The notes under the pieces were generated by a model, which ran no database searches, was not told the DNA's origin, and saw nothing but the letters and a program-made list of their open reading frames with translations. From Mesoplasma sp. JKS002658 (GTDB taxonomy: Bacteria > Bacillota_I > Bacilli_A > Mycoplasmatales > Mycoplasmataceae), in NCBI RefSeq assembly GCF_023566355.1, contig NZ_JAKNSW010000001.1, positions 248,001 through 312,000 of the forward strand: a stretch of 64,000 bases of DNA, read 5' to 3'. The translations under genes were made by a program, and so were the position numbers. Numbering within the stretch: position 1 is the stretch's first letter; every line of letters begins with the position of its first letter. Shown one piece after another: positions 33,473-48,109 of this stretch.

Positions 33473-34162
33473 ATGAAGATTGTGATTGGAGCGATGGAAG
33501 AAGAATTAAACCAGTTTGTGATTGACCTTGAAGCACAACGAGTTGAAGGTTCTTTAATTCCGGAGTTTTATCAACCTGATTTAGACTTAACGATTGCTTG
33601 AACTGGGGTAGGGATTAGTAATGCATCATGAGGATTAACTTACCTACTAACGAAGTATCAAGACCAGAAAATTGAATGAATCATTAATGCTGGCACTGCT
33701 TGTGGGGTTAATTTAACGCTAAACCAAAATGATGTTGTTTTAGTTAATCATGCCTATTATGCTACTGCTGATGCTACTTCTTTTGGTTATGATTATGGTC
33801 AAATTCCTTCAATGAAGAAGTATTACTCTGCTGCTCAAACTTTAATCAAACAAGTTCAAACTTTAATTTTGGATGAAAGCATAGTTTTAGGCAATGGAGC
33901 AACAAGTGATATTTTTTTTGTGCAACCACAACAAGTTTGTCAGTATCTTGATAAATTAGCTGAACCGATCGTTGTTGTTGATATGGAATGTGCGAGTTTT
34001 TATCAAGTAGCCGATCATTTCAATCACCCAATGATCGCACTTAAAATTATTAGTGACGTTTTGGAAAAAACCAAGGAGAATAGTCAGCAGTTTCACGAGT
34101 TTCTGCCAAAAGCTGCGATGAGGTTAAGTTTGATGCTGAGAAACTTTTTAAATATCAGTTAA
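33473..34162 (+). CDS. mtnN: 5'-methylthioadenosine/S-adenosylhomocysteine nucleosidase
   Basis: This enzyme cleaves the adenine from methylthioadenosine and S-adenosylhomocysteine, the by-product of all SAM methyltransferases, including those in this window. The 229-residue protein begins with IGAMEEEL, has the ribose-contacting VVDMECAS (E172) and the SDVLEK segment with the putative catalytic D195. The start codon directly follows the stop of nadD-yqeK. A purine nucleoside phosphorylase is the less likely alternative. Confidence 0.88.
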
Positions 34163-34201
34163 CTTTTTGTTAGAATTAAATTATTGTTATGGGGGTTAAT
34201 A

Positions 34202-34828
34202 ATGCGAGTTGCAATTTTTGGGACGGTTGGAGCTGGGAAGACTACTTTAATAGAAAATATCCATTCCTTTCTTCCTAACTATGTTACTTTTTGAGAGCCT
34301 CTAGAAAAAAATCCTTATTTTTCCCAGCTTTATAGTAATAATAAAGATATTCGTGCAATTACTTATAAAATGGAGATTTGGATGCTTGCTGCGAGAATGA
34401 AGCAGTTAAAACAATCTTCTGACCAAAAGGATGTCCTTTTTGATCGGGGAGTTATGGATACAATTATTTTTGCTGATACTAACTACCAGTTAGAAAAACT
34501 TGATGCTCGAGATTGACAAGTCTATAGTGACTATTTCCAAATTGCAACAATTCCTTCCTTGTTTAATCATCAAGATCCCGCTTATGATTTGGTGATTTAT
34601 TTAAAAGTTGATAGTCAGGTGTCAATTGAGCGGATTCGTGCTCGGGGAATTGAAAGTGAACAGAATGTTGATCCGATGTTTTGAAACATTCTGAACCAAA
34701 CTTATGATAAATGATATGAAAAATTAAAGGATTGTGTACCATTTTTAGTAATTAATGGTAATAATAATGATAGTAAGGTTTTAGCTCAACAAGTGGTTGA
34801 AACGATTAAACAACAGCAAAAACAATAA
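34202..34828 (+). CDS. Deoxynucleoside kinase (deoxyadenosine/deoxyguanosine type)
   Basis: This kinase phosphorylates salvaged deoxynucleosides. The 208-residue protein has the P-loop GTVGAGKTT (7-15), the FWEPLEKNPYF substrate motif, DRGVMDT where relatives have DRS, and the lid RIRARGIESE. Such kinases are well known in mollicutes, which depend on nucleoside salvage. A GGGGG run stands upstream of the ATG. The end of the gene forms part of its terminator. Confidence 0.9.
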
Positions 34829-34884: not shown

Positions 34885-35808
34885 ATGAAAATTAAAAAAT
34901 TAGCCGACCAAATAATTGTTCAATTAAGTCAAGAAAATGCTAAAAAATATGATCAGGCAACCAAAACAAGTTATCATGAAATTCTTGGTGATGAGTTGTC
35001 AATGAGTTTAGCAGAAGCATTTTTGGCAACCAAGCGAACTTTTCTGGTGAAAGATTATGGTTTTGAAGAACAGATTACTAGTTTAACTGGTAGTGATTTT
35101 TTTAATACCTTAAGTTATCTTGAAAAGTTAGCTTGTGAAGAGGTGGCAGATTTATTTGCCAACCAGGAATTAGAAAAGCTTAACGATCACTTTTTATTTA
35201 TTTTTGAAAATGGTCAAGAAACTTTGTTTAATGCGAAAAATAATCTTAGTGGGGATAATCAGTTAATTGAAATTGACTATCAAAACCTTTTTATTGCTTA
35301 TTATCAAGATTATTTAGAATTACTTTGTCTTCGTTTGCCAATTTATCTAAGTAAAATTCTTTCAATTTACCAGTCGTTGGCAAATTATGATGATGATCCC
35401 GGGTTTTTAATGGAACTTTTAGATGATGAAACTTTTGAATTTTTCAACGATTTAACTTTTAAAGCAACCCGAATTTTGAAGGGTTATTTAAAACAACTCT
35501 ATGCGAAGTGACCAATGGATGTTGTTAAAATGCGCAAAAAAAACGCTTTTAATAAAAACGCATTTGCTGATTTTGCGACCAATGTTTCACCCCACGATTT
35601 TAACCAAATTGTAATTGATAATGTTGAAGATGCTTTGATGGTGTTAGATTTAGCTCCAGGAGCTAGTGTGGCTGAAATTAAAAAAGCTTATCACCAGTTA
35701 GCGAAAAACTTTCACCCTGATTTAAATCCTGAAGATCCCGAACGTCAAGCAGCGATTTATTTAATCACGACTGCATACAACTTTTTAAAGCAGTTTTATC
35801 AGCAATAG
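34885..35808 (+). CDS. Protein with a C-terminal J domain
   Basis: A 307-residue protein has about 245 residues of unrecognised, acidic, helical N-terminal sequence. A C-terminal J domain follows (roughly 248-305), with helix II AEIKKAYHQLAKNF and the intact HPD triad (H277-P278-D279). The J domain stimulates DnaK ATPase, so the N-terminal part probably chooses a client or site for DnaK. The J domain of DnaJ itself is N-terminal, so this is a different architecture. A TGA at the junction is read as Trp; treating it as stop would split the gene in two. Confidence 0.85.
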
Positions 35809-36543
35809 TTACTTAATGAAGAAACTTCCTTTATTTTTGTGACTGGCATATTCTGCAAGATAAACTTTTAAATAGAATAAGAAGAGATAAACTGAAAGAA
35901 TGATTTCAGTGAAGAAGTTAAAAGTGGTGTTTTCAAAGGCTTTAGGATCTTCAATCTTGAATAAAACTCCGTAGTGTTCATCGATGTTTCGGGCTTCTTT
36001 TAAAAACTCACTTCATAAAAAAGAATTTTCATATTGAGTAATGAACGGGTTATATCTTCAATTGTTGAAGGTTACGCGTTTTAACTTGTTTCTGATGATT
36101 TTAGAAATGTTTGCGGTTTCATCTTTTTCTAATTCTTCTTCAATTAGGTTATAAAAATAGTCAATATTACTTTCAATATAATGAAGCATTGTTAACCGGT
36201 TAAGCAAGGAAAAAACGAAAGTAAACATCGTTTGGAGATCATAATAAGCAGGTTGAGTGGCGTTGACCTGGTTTGCAAAATTCATGTGGTTTTGGTGCTT
36301 TTTTAACTTTGATTGGAGATAGTTTCAAGAATACTCAAATTCTAAGTAAGGTGTTCCTTTGATTTGACTAATTAAGGTTTGTGCTAATTCAAAATTGTTT
36401 TCATAAAGTTGTTCTTTTAATTGGTCGATTCAAGTAAAGAATTCAAAGTTAGTGTTTTCAGGATTAATGTTTTTTGAAGTATCAAGGGTTTCAAAAGTTT
36501 TAAACTTTTCATAAAAGTCATTAAGAATTTTGGGGTCTTTCAT
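35809..36543 (-). CDS. Unknown protein with one hydrophobic C-terminal segment
   Basis: I do not recognise this 244-residue protein. It is mostly helical and rich in Asn, Phe, Lys and Glu, with one hydrophobic stretch near the C-terminus (FFTEIILSVYLFLFYLKVYLAEY) that may be a membrane anchor. Three ATGs in a row lie after AGGAGGGA; the third (36543) is best spaced. The gene converges exactly on the J-domain gene with no gap. Several TGA codons encode Trp. Confidence 0.7.
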
Positions 36544-36559
36544 CATCATTCCCTCCTGC

Positions 36560-36748
36560 CGCTAATGACTTGATTATATCGTTAAGTGGTTTTGTTTCAA
36601 AGAAAAATTCGAACCAAAAAGTGCGTTTTGTTTGCAAATAATCCCTAAAACAAACCTAATTAATGAGGTGAAACTTCGAACTTAATCGCTTAATTTTAAT
36701 CACATTTTGTTAAAAGTTGTAGAAAATAGCGGTTTTTTATTTAATTCG
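36560..36748. other. Intergenic DNA without recognisable genes
   Basis: This stretch lies upstream of the minus-strand unknown gene. It is AT-rich, has no open frame longer than a few codons on either strand, and must contain that gene's promoter, which I could not fix. No repeat was seen. Confidence 0.5.
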
Positions 36749-36777
36749 TTGTATTTGTAAACAAAACTCCATAAAAT
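36749..36777 (+). promoter_or_regulatory. Promoter of a candidate small RNA
   Basis: TTGTAT (36749-36754) and TAAAAT (36772-36777) are 17 bp apart. A second reading, TTGTAA with TATAAG and 16 bp spacing, overlaps it. No coding region starts within 300 bases downstream. Confidence 0.55.
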
Positions 36778-36783
36778 ATAAGT

Positions 36784-36993
36784 GTTAATTAGAAATGATT
36801 AACACCACAACGATGTTTGAGAAGAGGAAGTAGAGATCTTTTCTTGAACTTGGCAATGAATGAAATAATTAACTAATAACTAAAAACAATCCCATATAAC
36901 AACGTGTATTTCATATAATTGCTGAATATGAATTTAATTTATGTTAAATTTGTACCCTAAAAGGCAGACTTGGTTTTTCTAAGTCTGCCTTTT
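36784..36993 (+). ncRNA. Candidate small RNA or dhaK leader RNA
   Basis: About 210 bases lie between a promoter and a strong terminator, with no open reading frame. The 5' end forms an 8-bp hairpin GTGTTAAT/ATTAACAC with an 8-base loop (36782-36805), starting about at the predicted transcript start. I see no conserved core of tmRNA, RNase P RNA, SRP RNA or T-box. It could be an independent RNA, or a leader controlling dhaK 90 bases further on by premature termination. Confidence 0.45.
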
Positions 36994-36996
36994 TTG
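36959..36996 (+). terminator. Strong terminator upstream of dhaK
   Basis: A 13-bp stem AAAAGGCAGACTT/AAGTCTGCCTTTT with a 9-base loop runs into T's. No plus-strand gene lies just upstream. Confidence 0.9.
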
Positions 36997-37081
36997 CCTT
37001 GATAAGAAAAACTTCTGTTGTAAGTGGCTAATTTCAGTTAGAATTAGAATTATTAAGAAGAGAGTAGAAAAAGTTTGATTT

Positions 37082-38080
37082 ATGAAGAAATTTATTAATA
37101 AAGTTGATGATATTGTCCCAGAAATGTTAGAAGGTTTGACCTTGGCTTTTCCTGAAATTCTCAAAAGACTGCCAGATTATGAAGTCGTTGTTCGCAGTGA
37201 GTTTGATGAAAATAAAGTTAGTTTAATTAGTGGTGGGGGTAGTGGCCATGAGCCAGCTCACGCTGGGTATGTGGGCAAAGGAATGTTAGATGCTGCAATT
37301 GCTGGACCAGTGTTTACCTCCCCCACTCCTGATCAAATCCTAGCAGCAATTCAAAATGTTCCTAACAAAAATGGGGTGTTGTTAATTGTTAAAAACTACA
37401 CTGGGGATGTGATGAATTTTGAAATGGCTGCCCAAATGGCTGCAACAGAAGACATCAAGGTTGAAACTGTGATTGTTGATGAAGATATCGCTTTAAATGA
37501 TTTAAGTTCAGTTGGAGCTGGTAAGCGCGGACTGGCAGGAACGATTTTTGTTCATAAGATTAGTGGGGCAAAAGCTATGAGTGGAGCTAGTTTAGCAGAG
37601 GTGAAAGCAACTGCTCAAAAAGTAGTTGCTAATGTGGCAACTTTTGGAATTGGTCTAAACGGAGCAACAGTTCCTGCTAACCACAAACGCGGCTTTGAAT
37701 TAAGTGATGGGATTGCTGAAGTGGGATTAGGAATTCATGGTGAACCAGGATTACGTCAAGAACCTATGAAAACTGCTGATGAATTCACTGCAATGATTAT
37801 GGAAAAAATTATTGATAGTTTAAAACTAACTGCTAATAGCAAGGTCGGATTACTAATCAACGGGTTAGGAGCAACTCCAGAAATGGAATTAGACATCATT
37901 GCTAGAAAAGCAATTATGATGTTAAAAGATCTCGAAGTTGAAGTAGTTAAAACTTGGGTTGGTAATTATTTAACTTCAATTGATATGCCTGGAATGAGTA
38001 TTTCAGTGGTTAAACTTGATGATGAAACTCAACCACTCTTGCTAGCTGGGGCAAATACAATTGGAATGAAGGTGTTTTAA
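37082..38080 (+). CDS. dhaK: Dihydroxyacetone kinase subunit DhaK
   Basis: DhaK binds dihydroxyacetone covalently for phosphorylation by DhaL. The 332-residue protein has the substrate motif SGGGSGHEPAHAGYVG with H56 and the hemiaminal-forming histidine H219 in GLGIHGEPG. It starts the dhaK-dhaL-dhaM set, which turns dihydroxyacetone into DHAP for glycolysis using phosphate from PEP via the PTS. There is no TGA in this gene. Confidence 0.95.
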   Translation: MKKFINKVDDIVPEMLEGLTLAFPEILKRLPDYEVVVRSEFDENKVSLISGGGSGHEPAHAGYVGKGMLDAAIAGPVFTSPTPDQILAAIQNVPNKNGVLLIVKNYTGDVMNFEMAAQMAATEDIKVETVIVDEDIALNDLSSVGAGKRGLAGTIFVHKISGAKAMSGASLAEVKATAQKVVANVATFGIGLNGATVPANHKRGFELSDGIAEVGLGIHGEPGLRQEPMKTADEFTAMIMEKIIDSLKLTANSKVGLLINGLGATPEMELDIIARKAIMMLKDLEVEVVKTWVGNYLTSIDMPGMSISVVKLDDETQPLLLAGANTIGMKVF

Positions 38081-39243: not shown

Positions 39244-42200
39244 ATGGGCAAAGATTATTTAGAACTGTTAAATAATTTAACACGTAAAGAAGAAAATAAA
39301 CAAAGTACGAAAGTAGATGTAGTTGATGTCGACAACGAATGGATTATCAACCAGTTTAGTAGTCAGCTAAGAGCAGAGTTTGACCAAATCACCTTCAATA
39401 GTTTAGCTGAAAAGTTAGACTATTTAAACAAGCGTTTTAATTATCAGTTTAATGCAGAAGTGGTCGTTAACAAACACCAAAATACTACTGTGATTCCTGA
39501 GTTGAGTAAAAACTTGAGTATGAACGAACTGATTACAAGCAGGCTGTATCATCATTTACACCAGAATGCCCAAACTGCTGATGAGATTTATTTAATTAGT
39601 CCCTTCATTTCTCAACCAACAGTGAACAAACTGCGGAGTTTGTTAGAAAATGATGCAGCAATTAGTCTAAAAATTATCACTACTACTTATGATGGTAATT
39701 CTTCACATTTAGAGTTACGCGGATTACAAAGGTTATACCAAGATTATCCTTCAAGAGTGGCAATCAGGATTGAAAACCTCACTTCATCAAGTCAAGAAAG
39801 GTTACACATCAAGAATTATTTCTTTAAACGTAATCATAGTTTTTCAACTGCTTTTATTGGTTCAAGTAATTTAACTTATACTGGTGTGGTCACAGGGAAA
39901 GAGTATAACTTAAAGATTTCTGAATTTCGGGAACCATCGTTGATTAAAACTTTAGAAGAGAATTTTTTCCTCCTTTGAAATGATCCTGGTTTTGTTGACT
40001 TTAGTGATCATAAGATTATTAATGAATTAATTATTAACAAGGAAATGTTCTTATTAGTTCAAGAACAAAATGCTACAGAATTAAGGTTAAACCACCCAAC
40101 CAAGAATACTACTAATGATCTTATTACCCAAATTATTAAACCTTTTGCTTATCAACAAGAGATTTTGGATGTTTTGAACCAAAGAATTGAGATTGGAAAG
40201 AATAAACATTTAATCGTGATGGCAACAGGAACTGGTAAAACTGCTTTAGTTGCTTTCTTTTATAAACAATTATTTAGTCAAATGGGGAGAAAACCAAAAC
40301 TGTTATATATTTCTCACCAACAAGAAATCTTGAGTCAAGCTCGTAGAACCTTTCAAAGTGTTTTGAAAGATCACCAGTTTGGAGTAGATTTTTATGATGG
40401 GTCAAGCATTTCTCCAAGTGATGATCAGATTTTTGCCACGATTCAAACCCTATCGCGTCATTTAGAACTAGTTAAAGATAAACCTTTTGATTTGGTTGTC
40501 TATGATGAAGCACACCACATTCAAGCCTCAACTTATAAACAAGTTTATGAAACCTTAAAAGCAGTTTCAAGTCAAATTATTGGTTTAACTGCAACACCAA
40601 AACGAACTGAAGGTTTTGATGTCAAAGATTATTTCTTTGATGGTGAGTATGCCTACCAGTTGGATTTAGCCACGGCTTTAAACCGAAATTTACTAAGTAA
40701 CTTTGATTACTACTTTATTAAAGATGATAGTGTTGATTTACATCAAGTCGATATTACTACTCAAACTAAGTTGTTATCCCAACGGCTAAGTAGTTTGAAA
40801 CGGAATGAATTTGTTTATGAAAACCTGGTGAAGTATATCGGATTAAATCGTCATGATGTAAGTGTCTTAATCTTTTGCGTCGATATTAACCATGCTAATA
40901 GTGTTGCTAATTACTTATCACAGAAAAATGAACGGGTTGCTGTCTTGTTTGGTGAAACTAATAAAGAAGCTCGAAAGGCGATTATTGAAAACTTTAAGCA
41001 TAAAGCAATTAACTATCTTTGTGTGGTTGATATTTTTAATGAAGGGGTTGATATTCCGAATGTTGATCGTTTATTTTTGTTGCGCCCAACAAGTTCATTG
41101 ATTGTTTATTTACAACAATTGGGAAGGGGGTTAAGAAAATTTCCCGGCAAACGTTTGGAAGTATTTGACTTTATTAACAACATTGATGCTGAAGTTAATA
41201 AGAATTACAACCCTTTTATTTTTTTAGAACCTTTAATGAGTAAAGATTTAAATAACAAACAAGTTAAAGACTTAAAGGTTAACTTTGACAAAATTAGTGG
41301 TTATGTGGCAGGAGATAGTTTATTTCACTTTGAAAAAGCATCAAAGAATTTTTTCAAAGACAAAGTTGCTAAAATGACTCAAAGAAGTTATCTTAACCGA
41401 ATTGCTCAGTTATTAGAAAGTTATTGAGAGAATAATGTAATTAGTTATGAAAATTATGAAGAGTTTGTTCTTAATAACTTTGACCATGTTTATCAGTTTT
41501 ATGCCGAAAATAACCTTACCTGATTAAAAGAGAACAAAATAACAAAATTAAATGGGTTTCGTAAGATTAGTGATATTTATGCTGATTTTACTATTTTAAA
41601 TAATTCAGCTTTGATTCGTGAACTGCAAATGATGATTCAAGAAAGAAAATCCTCTGATTATTTAATTGTCAATGGTTTGGTGTCTGTTTCGCTGTTTGCA
41701 GGTTTAAAAGAATACGAAGATTGTTTAAAAAGAAACAATGCCATTGATATTTGAGAAGTCTTAAAGAAAAGAGAATTTAATTCATTTTTGAGAGAATTGG
41801 AATATATACTAAAATTTAAATTATCAAATGAGGATTTAATTGAAACAAAGATTTCTAATGAGACTGAAGATTATGTTGATTCAACTTTTACCAAACGACA
41901 AGCCTTGACAATTACCAAAGTTCTTTATAAAAAATATGATGAAATGATTAATTGAAAAGGTGGAAAGGTTACTAGAGGTTTTATTAACGGTATTGATAAA
42001 AACAGGCATGTTGCTCTTTGTTCTGCTTATAGTGATCGACGAAATGGTTATAAAAATGAATTCAATCACTTAACCAAGGAACTTGTTTGATTTTCACCCG
42101 CAGGACAATGATTGAAATCTGATAATTCTTTAACTAACAGAGCTAAAGAATTTGAAGACACTATAAATAATAAAGTCTGATTTATCTATGCGAATGAATC

Positions 42201-42348
42201 CTTGTGGGACAAATATCAGGGTTTCAATGGCGATAGACACATCAAGGTATTTAGACTTTTAGGTAGAAATGAACAAATTGTTTCAAAAGAAAATGATGAA
42301 ATTAATAGTCAAACTATAAGATATGTTTTAAAAATTTCTAACAGATAA
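39244..42348 (+). CDS. PLD-nuclease / SF2 helicase / DUF3427 protein
   Basis: This 1034-residue protein joins three parts. Residues ~60-260 are a phospholipase-D-like domain with LHIKNYFF (H188, K190) and FIGSSNLT, the HxK and following Ser/Asn of PLD nucleases. Residues ~290-700 are a superfamily 2 helicase with GTGKT (329-333), DEAH (421-424), GLTATPKR and QLGRGLRK. The remainder matches the DUF3427-type C-terminal region. Such proteins are widespread in Firmicutes, sometimes near defence genes, but are not proven antiviral. TGA codons at the domain junctions and in the C-terminal part encode Trp. It lies 156 bases after dhaM. Confidence 0.88.
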
Positions 42349-43287: not shown

Positions 43288-44037
43288 TTATTTGAAACCT
43301 TCATAATCTTCAAAGGCATATTCAAAGATTATATCAATTAAAGGCTTTTTTTCTTCATTAGCTTGAGATTTTATTTGTTCTGATAAATCTATACTTGTTT
43401 TCATATTATTAGTTGAAATAAAAGTTTCTTCTGAAACTATTTCCTTAATTCCTTGACATAAATAATAGAACATTTTGCTCTCTCTGGTTATCAATTCTAA
43501 AAACTTATCAATTGAAATTAATCTTATATTTTCATGGCATTCCTTATTACTAATTTTTCAAATATCATTTTTACTACCTTTTGCCATTATTTGTAATAAG
43601 TAACATGTGGCTTTACTGTCATCTTTAATTTTTTTCTCCATTTTTTCAAACGTTGACAATTGAGAACTAGAATTCATTGTATTAAATTTATTTTTGATTT
43701 CTACATATATATGTTCTTCTTCGTTTACTAGATCCCACCCTTTCTTTGGCACGTTTCATTTTTTATAGTTTGTGTATTCAAATATATACTGATGAAAATA
43801 TCCGATTTTGCTCTCGGTTTTCTTTCCATGTCTTCTTAATATTTCATCAGTAATTAATTCGTCTTGCTTATTTTCAAGTAAATAACTATCAAATAAAAAC
43901 TTAAATGGATCAGTCGGAGTTTTTTTGAAATCTTCTAATGTTATGCTTGAATAAGCCTCTTTATAGTTTTTTAATTCAGTTTTTACATATTTTCTTAAAC
44001 TTTCTTTTGAAATAAACTTAAATAATTTCTCGTTCAT
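43288..44037 (-). CDS. Type II restriction endonuclease, Eco47II/Sau96I-like
   Basis: This 249-residue protein matches the Eco47II restriction endonuclease family pattern: DPFKFLFD early, KIGYFHQYIFEY, then GWDLVNEEEHIYVEIKNKFNT, in which D102 and the E113-x-K115 pair form a PD-(D/E)xK site. Members cut GGWCC or GGNCC, so a site of that kind is likely, not certain. Two TGA codons are read as Trp. It starts inside the upstream methyltransferase gene (20-base overlap), ensuring coupled synthesis. The gene is AT-richer than the housekeeping genes. Confidence 0.82.
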
Positions 44038-45040
44038 TTTCTACTCCCTCTAAATAATTTTTGATACTTATAGCAACTCTCTTTGCTAATTCAACTGGGA
44101 CTGCATTTCCGATTTGCTTGTATTGACTTGAGATGCTTCCATAAAAATTTCAATAATCTGGAAAGCTTTGTATTCGTGCAGACTCTCTAATTGTGAAAGG
44201 TCGAGTTTCTTCTGGATGACATCTTTCTGTTTGCATTTGAGATGGCGAGGTTGTTAACGTTAAGGAAGGTTCATTTCATGATATTCTTCTAGCAATTCCT
44301 GTCTTCCCTCCTCCCAATGCATAGCTTCCCTTCATATATTCTCTAGCTATGTCATCTGGAAGATTTTTTCAGCATCCTCCGGGTGGGATCATTTCCAAAA
44401 TTTTCTTTTTTTTATCCGAATACGGCGTAAAAGGAGAATTCGGAACATCCTTAAGAACATCCTTAAGAACTTTTTTCTTTTTTGATGGTTCTGGAAAAGA
44501 AAATTTGTTTATATTCAAATCTTTTCTTATCCCTACTATAAAAAGTCGTTGTCTTTTTTGAGCTACAGAATAATCTCAAGCGTTTAACACTTTATGGTAT
44601 ATTACATAGCCACTTTTTTCTAAAGTTTTTTTTATTTTTTTAAAAGTTTTTCCACTGTCGTTGGTTAATAAACCTTTTACGTTTTCAAAAAGAATAGCTT
44701 TTGGTTTTACTGAATTTATTATTTTAGCAAATGAAAAAAACAAATTTCCTCGCTCATCTTTAAAACCCATTTTTTTCCCCGCGTAACTAAATGGTTGGCA
44801 AGGAAAACCTCCTGATATTAAATCAATATCATCTACGGAAATTATATTTTTTATTCCATCATTTGCCAATTTACTAATATCGTAATTTATGACAATTCAT
44901 TTTGAATTATTCATCTTTAAAGTTTTGATTGAATCTTTGTCATTATCTACGACATATTTAGTTTTAAAACCGGCTTTTTCAATACCTAGAGCAAGGCCAC
45001 CTGCTCCAGCACACAACTCTAAAACGTTATATTTCTTCAT
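44018..45040 (-). CDS. DNA (cytosine-5-)-methyltransferase, partner of the endonuclease
   Basis: This 340-residue C5 methyltransferase protects DNA from the overlapping endonuclease. Motif I is LELCAGAGGLALGIEKAGF, motif IV GGFPCQPFSYAGKK with nucleophile C81, motif VI FENVKG, motif VIII QKRQRLFIVG, and motif X QIGNAVPVELAKR. The variable target-recognition region lies between VIII and IX. The ATG at 45040 follows GAAAGGATG on the minus strand. TGA codons encode Trp. It is divergent from a second methyltransferase gene. Confidence 0.95.
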
Positions 45041-45183: not shown

Positions 45184-46266
45184 GTGACAAAAGTGGTGGG
45201 GATTGATTTGTTTTGTGGAATAGGTGGCTTAACTAATGGTTTAGTTCAATCTAACATTGAAATAAGAGCAGGTTTTGATATAGATGAAACTTGCAGAAAA
45301 TCGTTTTCCCAAAAAAATAATGGTTTTCCTGACTTTGTTTGTGGAGACATAAAGAAATTGGGGGAACAGGATTTCAAAAAATATTTTAGCGACTTAAAAC
45401 AAGACGATTATAAATTAATTGCCGGTTGTGCACCGTGTCAACCCTATTCTTCTTATCAAAAAAACAAGGATTTCAAAAGTAGATCAAATCATAAATCCTA
45501 TGGTTTAATTGAGGAATATTTAAGAGTTGTTAAGATAGTGGAACCAGATTTTGTTGTTATGGAAAATGTGCGTTTATTAATAAAGGATGATGTATTTTTA
45601 AATCAGTTCGTTGAATATTTTCGCGAAAATAACTTCCATGTTGATTATAAAGTAGTTAATATGGCTGATTATGGAGCTCCTCAACGCAGAATGCGTCTTT
45701 TATTTTTAGCTGTTAATAAAAAAACTGTAAAAAATTTTAGAGATTTTGTTGTACATAAAAAGATTAAGAACCTCAATAAAAAGACCGTTTTTGATACCAT
45801 AGGTTATCTACCTAAAATAAATAATGGAGAAATCAATAAGACTGATTTTTTACATCAATCTTCAAAATTAAGTGATTTGAATTTGAAAAGAATCAAAAAT
45901 TCAAGGGAAGGTGGTACTTGAAGAGATTGACCTAAGGATATTCTGCCAGATTGCTACAAAAGAGAATCAGGCAGTACATATAGTTCTGTATATGGAAGAA
46001 TGAAGAAACATGATGTATCTCCTACTTTGACAACTCAGTTTAATAGATATGGAACAGGAAGATATGGTCATTATGAGCAAGACAGAGCAATTTCTCTTAG
46101 GGAGGGAGCCTTGCTCCAAACTTTCCCTGTTGATTATGAATTTGATTCTTCTCTCGGAACTACAGTTATAGCTAGACAAATAGGTAATGCTGTTCCTCCG
46201 ATTTATGCTAAGGTTTTAGGAGAAATGATATTGGACAATTTGAAAATGGTGAAAAAGAATGAATGA
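45184..46266 (+). CDS. Second DNA (cytosine-5-)-methyltransferase
   Basis: This 360-residue C5 methyltransferase is clearly different from the first. Motif I is GIDLFCGIGGLTNGL, motif IV GCAPCQPYSSY with C85, motif VI VMENVRL, motif VIII PQRRMRLLFLA, and motif X RQIGNAVPPIYAKVLGEM. The GTG at 45184 is the likely start, since AAGGAG lies 11 bases upstream and the earlier in-frame ATGs have no ribosome-binding site. It overlaps the ATPase-TIR gene by eight bases, so the two are made together. A TGA near 45919 is read as Trp. Confidence 0.93.
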
Positions 46267-48109
46267 TAATAAAAAGTTTAAGATGCAAATTGAACCTAAG
46301 GTGTTGAAATATCTGGGTCCATTGTTATATACCAATGTATATTCAATAATTGGAGAATTAATAGCAAATTCATATGATGCGGATGCAGAAAATGTTTATT
46401 TAACAATTGATCATAAAAAAAATAATATAACAATTGAAGATGATGGAATCGGAATGTCATATGATGATATTAATGATAAGTATTTAGATATAGCATTAAC
46501 TTCAAGAGAAGATGATATGAACGTTTTTACCAGTAAAAATAGGAAGAAGATGGGTAGAAAAGGTATAGGTAAATTATCTGCTTTAACCTTATCTGAATCA
46601 ATGTACGTTGAATCAATAAAAGACTATATAACTAATGGCTTTATTTTTACGTTGAATATTCAAAAAGATGATTTTTTTAGTGTTCTAGAAGACGATGAGA
46701 TAAATTTTAGAAAAGAAATTAACAAAAATGGACACGGCACAAAAATAGAAATAAATAATGTAAAATCATCTATTCCTAAAAAAGCTAAAACTTATAAGAC
46801 TAATATTTCTAAATTATTTCCTTTTTTTAGTGATGATTTTAAATTACATATTTGTTGTATTGACGAAAAAGAGGAACAAAATGAAATTTTAGATTCGTTT
46901 GACTATTCCGTTTTTGATGACTTGGCTTTTGTAAAATTTTATGGATATTCCGAAGATAAAATTGAATTAATTCTTAAAAAAATAAAGAATCAAGAATTGT
47001 CAAAAGAAAAGAAATTTGAATCAATTCCCTCACTCAAGAAAGAAATTGAGATTAATAACAATAAAGGTTTAAAGGCGAAAAAAGAAGTAGAAATAAAAGG
47101 TTGATTAGGTGCATTAAAAACAATTACAAAGAAAAATAAAACTGATATTGAAGATTTTTCAAAAAGTTATATATCAATTGTTTCAAATAAAAAGGTTGGA
47201 TTGTTTGACTTGCGTCCAAAGATTACAAAAAATCGAACCCTAGAATCGTATTTGTTAGGAATACTTGAGGTTGATATATTTGAAGATAGCTCTCTTAATG
47301 ACATGGCGTCATCGAATAGAGAAGGATATTCCACCTCTGATCCTAGATGAAAAGAATTTATTAATTTGATTAAACCAGAAGTTGATAAAATTCTTTCAAA
47401 AAGAGCAAAATTGAATAGTGCGGATGATGCCAAAAAATCTGAAAAGAACAATAAAAAAATTAATGAAATTTTCGAAAAGATTGAAAAATATAAAAGTGAT
47501 GATTTCGTTGATTCTTCAAAAAAACAAAAAACCAAAGAAGAAATTAGAACATTATTAGAATTAAAAGACAATGAAAAGTCAATAACAAAGAAGATTATGA
47601 TTAGTCACTCCGGAAAGGATAAAAAGTTTTGCGATTTTGTTTATGATGTTCTGGTTGATAATAATATAGATCCCAAAGATATATTATATTCAAATTGTGA
47701 TGATGTTTTATCAAGAATTCCTGAAGATGAAAATATTTATAATTATCTACGAACCTTTTTTGTTAATAGTGTCGTAAATAAAAAGATGCATGTCATATAT
47801 GTTTATAGTGAAAATATGAAAGGAAGTTGAGGAGCAATAAGCGAGGTTGGAGCGGGCTGAATAACTCAATCCAATTCATCAATTTTTAATTTAAAGTGAA
47901 ACGGAAAAGATCCAGGAAATCCGAATAAACCCTTGGATAATGATAAAATTTTTTATAATTTTGACATGAGTGATGATTTTAAGATAACTATTGATGAACT
48001 AGAGTTAAACAAAATAAGCAATAGAATAGAAACTATTTCAGAAAATGTCGGAGTTCAGTCAAAAACGCTTGAACAAATAAAAGACCAAATATTGAAAAAA
48101 ATAAATTAA
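46259..48109 (+). CDS. GHKL (MORC/HSP90-like) ATPase fused to a C-terminal TIR domain
   Basis: A 616-residue protein. The N-terminal ATPase shows the Bergerat fold: N-box IGELIANSYDADA (E33, N37, D40), G1 DDGIGM (62-66) and G2 MGRKGIGKLSA (98-108), as in HATPase_c_3/MORC-type proteins. A transducer-like middle part (about 190-380) and a lysine-rich linker follow. From about 445 a TIR domain begins (MISHSGKDKKFCDFVYDVL), with a candidate catalytic E529 in SWGAISEVGAG and a helical C-terminal tail. By known families, TIR domains cleave NAD, and MORC-like ATPases occur with C5 methyltransferases in restriction operons. Combining both in one protein here is inferred to be a defence effector. Several TGA codons encode Trp. 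Confidence 0.85.

Follow-up and report, generated by a model that had tools for sequence, protein, structure and literature searches.

Does the ORF-free stretch ahead of dhaK in this insect-associated mollicute encode a small RNA of its own, or is it the leader of the dha operon? The locus lies in the 64-kb window (the whole stretch of DNA analysed here; G+C 32.9%), which comes from an assembly of 768 kb in four contigs; UGA is read as tryptophan in this DNA, and split genes were joined under code 4. An earlier note had described a promoter, an 8-bp 5' hairpin and a 13-bp terminator bracketing a segment free of ORFs, with dhaK starting about 90 bases downstream, and had read these elements as either a trans-acting RNA or a transcription-attenuating riboswitch. 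The elements themselves were recovered, with both stems longer than given there. The promoter-like site, TTGTAT-17-TAAAAT, spans 36749-36777 on the + strand (-35 TTGTAT at 36749-36754, -10 TAAAAT at 36772-36777, 17-nt spacer); it carries 8 of the 12 consensus letters, which is too weak for the standard promoter scan to detect. Where the RNA is expected to begin stands a hairpin of 10 bp rather than 8 (H1, 36782-36805), and the segment closes with an intrinsic terminator hairpin of 15 bp rather than 13, with a 5-nt loop and a subsequent T-run (H5, 36959-36993), which a simple terminator scan missed. No ORF of at least 20 aa occurs on the + strand in 36649-37081 under code 4, the minus strand holding only frames of 23 and 61 aa, and the dhaK ATG follows at 37082, 88 nt past the terminator stem.

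Between H1 and the terminator we found three further hairpins on the + strand that the earlier description lacked: H2 (36815-36849; 12 bp with an 11-nt loop), H3 (36850-36925), which carries a 39-nt apical loop at 36868-36906, and the A+U-rich H4 (36927-36954). Among 638 windows of 214 nt, the one at 36782-36995 on the + strand was the most stably folded (z = -7.1, as compared with -4.9 for the second-best) in a scan of both strands of the 64 kb at a 200-nt step, with 14 shuffles each and a fixed standard deviation. For the 248-nt segment as a whole, the fold z-score was -6.55 on the + strand, where none of 200 shuffles folded as well (0/200), and -2.43 on the - strand. A terminator serving an upstream gene is unlikely, because the gene directly upstream (35809-36549) is encoded on the - strand and the nearest coding gene on the + strand ends at 35808.

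We compared the locus with the one other sampled genome of the genus, that of Mesoplasma lactucae ATCC 49193, which carries an orthologous RNA in the same position. There, the kinase and DnaJ-like genes are followed by an oppositely oriented gene, then by the RNA and by dhaK, dhaL and dhaM; the oppositely oriented gene corresponds to the divergent neighbour at 35809-36549, which encodes a 246-aa protein with an RNxDxH motif that we take to be the signature of HEPN RNases, and which we refer to as HEPN-like. The order of the hairpins is kept in the M. lactucae RNA (fold z = -3.9), including an 8-bp hairpin in the position of H1, a counterpart of H4 and a terminator that differs from H5 in sequence and occupies the same place in an equivalent role. 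The promoter-like site, TTGTAT-17-TAGAAT, has identical -35 letters and spacing. All 12 pairs of H2 are preserved, with six both-sided and four one-sided changes and none broken, and so are all eight pairs of the inner H3 stem, with one both-sided change; sliding the pairing partners by 1 to 3 columns as a control reduced pairing to 40-55%. This covariation is strong for each helix but derives from a single comparison of two sequences. The loop of H2 is 11 nt long in both species and contains AAGUAGAG in both, and in the loop of H3 a run of 37 consecutive nt is identical.

A chance fold in A+T-rich intergenic DNA, with no gene behind it, is scarcely credible given a z-score of about -7 and the compensatory evolution in the relative, even with a promoter that is weak by consensus; the structure first noticed in the earlier note thus exceeds chance. 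By all the sequence evidence the locus is a real small RNA gene, restricted to the genus, and the stretch of about 210 nt very likely encodes a free-standing structured RNA, the signals that would mark a discrete transcription unit (promoter-like site and terminator) being present and conserved as sequence in two species.

The position of the RNA raises the alternative that it acts in cis, as a riboswitch or attenuator that passes transcription through the terminator into dhaKLM. The arrangement is akin to that of attenuating riboswitches before metabolic operons, namely a structured RNA, a terminator shortly ahead of the first gene and then the operon, and M. lactucae shows the same arrangement. 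However, no antiterminator is shared by the two species: the terminator arm in the window pairs worse than most shuffles (407/500 as good), and that of M. lactucae pairs somewhat (20/500 as good), amounting to a weak antiterminator in that species only. The part of the RNA that is invariant, the apical loop, is distant from the terminator, and between the terminator and dhaK M. lactucae has a promoter-like site of its own, TTGGCT-17-TATAAT (10/12 consensus letters). The dhaK leader in the window contains no promoter match at 8/12 or better, which leaves some room for read-through in this species. Among 60 genomes of the family, dhaK occurs in eight, and six of these eight lack the RNA, so that it is not a general dhaK leader; nor do we see a dhaK link outside the genus or a match to any riboswitch in Rfam. 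The attenuator half of the earlier interpretation thereby becomes improbable, and a stand-alone small RNA rather than a dhaK riboswitch is the most likely reading, in keeping with the trans-acting half of that interpretation, for which the conserved promoter spacing, hairpins, terminator and invariant exposed loop all speak.

A covariance model built on H2-H3 found the RNA in 2/60 genomes of the family and 2/320 genomes of the order, both of this genus, with no match in the other 318. A 31-nt core, allowing up to three mismatches, was present in 2/198 order genomes, and a 20-nt core hit one record in the genome collection, that of M. lactucae. Plasmids contained no match to the RNA and viral contigs none to the 20-nt core. 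Twenty phage records matched at E values of 0.2-0.7 through short A+T-rich stretches, which we judged to be chance, as we did a 27-nt blastn match in a further genome (G045; E = 1e-4) that the covariance model did not support. The RNA also matches no family in Rfam: at the gathering threshold only six tRNAs in the window passed, and at E values up to 10 the best match to the RNA (E = 0.09) scored 20.4 bits where 80.4 would be needed to pass, so that comparison with known families returned nothing credible. Neither this RNA nor a dhaK riboswitch was named in the titles or abstract openings of the literature found. The small RNAs predicted in Mycoplasma (PMC5088518) are likewise lineage-specific intergenic candidates in Mollicutes; they come from other species, and the likeness drawn here is one of description.

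How might such an RNA act? The invariant segment of the H3 loop (36867-36903, + strand) is 37 nt long, devoid of G and contains UCCC, a make-up (G-free with CCC) shared by 0.11% of the 37-mers drawn from the two strands of the window. In both species its computed mean pairing probability is 0.07 across 36 of its nucleotides, and the UCCC is computed to be accessible within the hairpin loop. The exposed loop therefore looks suited to pairing with other messages, and we propose the segment as a binding site for a target or a protein. In a review of S. aureus RNAs (PMC3861533), accessible UCCC motifs of small RNAs are described as pairing with Shine-Dalgarno sequences, in Listeria and B. subtilis too. 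On that precedent we compared the loop with the leaders of both genomes.

The leader that stood out belongs to a deoxynucleoside-kinase gene (34202-34828, + strand; Pfam), encoded 2.6 kb upstream of the RNA. Its ribosome-binding region TTGTTATGGGGGTT (34184-34197, + strand) can form 14 bp with the loop, with one bulge, and the pairing spans the G-run of the leader (UUGUUAUGGGGGUU here and UGUUAUAUGGGG in M. lactucae). Among 157 reciprocal ortholog pairs, drawn from 224 kb of the window's own genome and 240 kb of the M. lactucae genome, the kinase leader ranked first, with a joint duplex energy of -33.0 kcal/mol (z = -4.0) for 65-nt leaders; taken singly, it ranked 3/199 and 1/208. With leaders of 100 nt, the joint energy for the kinase was -39.9 kcal/mol. 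Four kinase leaders from a genus that lacks the RNA paired poorly (-4.7 to -7.6 kcal/mol) and contained no such site. The kinase leader in the window (34162-34202) has an unusual ribosome-binding run, GGGGG, which is kept in M. lactucae.

Shuffled versions of the loop also reach the observed best. Across the 157 pairs, shuffled 37-mers did as well in 52/300 cases and shuffles that keep CCC in 106/300 (17-35%), and the kinase is therefore a candidate target and not a finding. A 19-nt sub-segment, picked after the result was seen, was equalled by 10/300 shuffles and by 20/300 that keep CCC. When 54 pairs were used, shuffles were as good in 52/1000 and 143/1000 cases for the 37-mer, and in 10/1000 and 39/1000 for the 19-mer. 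Matches to the target pattern across the two genomes numbered 16, with 18 for a reversed control pattern, and so showed no excess. The leaders of the HEPN-like gene and of dhaK were considered as loop targets as well and were not outliers (joint energies of -12.2 and -10.5 kcal/mol). The best reverse-complement match to the RNA in its own genome (22 nt, E = 0.002) fell in an A+T-rich stretch just past a gene, whose product is presumably HU-like; it showed no conserved partner site and was set aside.

Building on the observed anatomy, its conservation, the compensatory changes and the restriction to one genus, we infer a transcript with antisense action on a target, as follows. Transcription would start at or slightly before H1 and end at the RNA's own intrinsic terminator, with H1 and the terminator shielding the two ends and H2 and H3 forming the body. 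H3 would present its long single-stranded, G-free loop with UCCC as an antisense arm, which would pair with G-rich ribosome-binding regions and block translation, in the way known for C-rich loops of other Gram-positive small RNAs, the kinase mRNA being the best candidate target. We hold this explanation, a free-standing RNA of about 210 nt with an antisense loop directed at ribosome-binding regions and the kinase mRNA as its best candidate target, to be about evenly balanced between right and wrong. Its closest counterparts are the antisense RNAs of Gram-positive bacteria with UCCC loops (the Rsa RNAs and the loops of RNAIII), which are discrete genes with a terminator and an accessible UCCC in a loop, as is predicted here, and as with these a candidate pairing covers a ribosome-binding site. 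They differ from the RNA described here in that its loop is very long (39 nt) and shows no sequence relation to theirs, its target is statistically unsupported, and it is a prediction from sequence.

As only two sequences are compared, the invariance of the H3 loop could equally mark a site for a protein or a ligand. A conserved structured RNA that works via some other protein or via a ligand (in a sequestering or housekeeping role, for instance), and not through base pairing, would account for the fact that 37 invariant loop nucleotides, together with the second conserved loop AAGUAGAG, exceed what one pairing seed needs. We regard such a mode of action as doubtful: the RNA has no relative in Rfam, and its occurrence in one genus only disfavours a housekeeping role in particular.

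A more specific protein partner is suggested by the divergent HEPN-like gene. The RNxDxH motif in its product and the precedent of AbiF, a toxin with HEPN links that is held by a non-coding RNA (PMC12373285), led us to consider the RNA as the partner or antitoxin of an RNase toxin or defence effector, checking the protein through its invariant loop in an AbiF-like manner. The RNA and the gene are adjacent in both genomes that bear the RNA, recognition by a protein fits the strong invariance of the loop, and the window has restriction genes close by. The HEPN-like protein is 61% identical in M. lactucae, and all three homologues compared, the most distant of which (G013) is 27% identical, retain RNxDxH unchanged. 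This third homologue adjoins a gene for an AAA_21/DUF4435 ATPase in a defence-like pair (G013, L031:1495-3619), which would also suit a defence role.

Against such a partnership, the genome with the third homologue yielded no match to the RNA, and the features of AbiF that we tested all failed save the HEPN-like motif. A search for Abi_2 at E values up to 10 found no match in the window protein or its M. lactucae orthologue, the abiF RNA (RF03085) was not among the 15 Rfam matches of our RNA at E values up to 10, and the RNA and the gene lie on opposite strands (+ and -, respectively) and so are not co-transcribed as in AbiF. The locus thus resembles AbiF and its RNA antitoxin in that a structured RNA, ending in a terminator of its own, stands beside a gene with a HEPN-like motif, and departs from it in domain, RNA family, orientation and the use of a separate promoter. 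The predicted structure of the protein is poor (pLDDT 43), so that its assignment to HEPN is drawn from the motif, and searches of Pfam, NCBIfam and PADLOC, as well as a profile search of the PDB, matched nothing. Homologues are rare and scattered, occurring in 4/148 order genomes, one of which (G121) we judged to be chance; a profile search of class genomes matched 2/395, the second weakly and partially, with G001 (M. lactucae) and G013 not among the matches listed, and plasmids, phages and viral contigs contained none. Overall, we consider an RNA that restrains the HEPN-like protein possible but unlikely. The stronger proposal, in which the RNA is the dedicated antitoxin or cofactor of an undescribed small family of Mollicutes RNxDxH HEPN-like RNases, unrelated in sequence to AbiF and expressed from divergent promoters, which would stand next to AbiF and Cas13 as a second, independent case of RNA-HEPN pairing, is one that we would advance only with reserve, as rather unlikely. 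If the link to the HEPN-like protein were true, the locus would provide another natural RNase held by a structured RNA.

Near-minimal Mollicutes are generally credited with sparse regulation; a small RNA whose structure shows compensatory change is useful in such organisms. The antisense reading and the protein-partner readings can both be approached from this locus: the RNA offers compensatory changes, an invariant loop and testable partners (the kinase mRNA and the HEPN-like protein), and the genus has a cultured reference strain. We regard it as a candidate new regulator, though not an exotic one.

The DNA on the far side of the dha operon carries several restriction-related genes. Directly 3' of the operon lies a gene for a 1034-aa protein with PLD nuclease and helicase parts (39244-42348, + strand), whose best match in PADLOC is a type IV restriction enzyme. 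It is followed by a gene for an Eco47II-type restriction endonuclease (43288-44037, - strand; Pfam E = 5e-55) and by two ORFs, at 44018-45040 (- strand) and 45184-46269 (+ strand), that are DNA methyltransferase-like by their first residues. In M. lactucae, the position after dhaM is occupied by a different protein of 275 aa (L021:803-1630), which matched no family and bears an Rx4H motif (RNLIAH), and this flank therefore seems variable.
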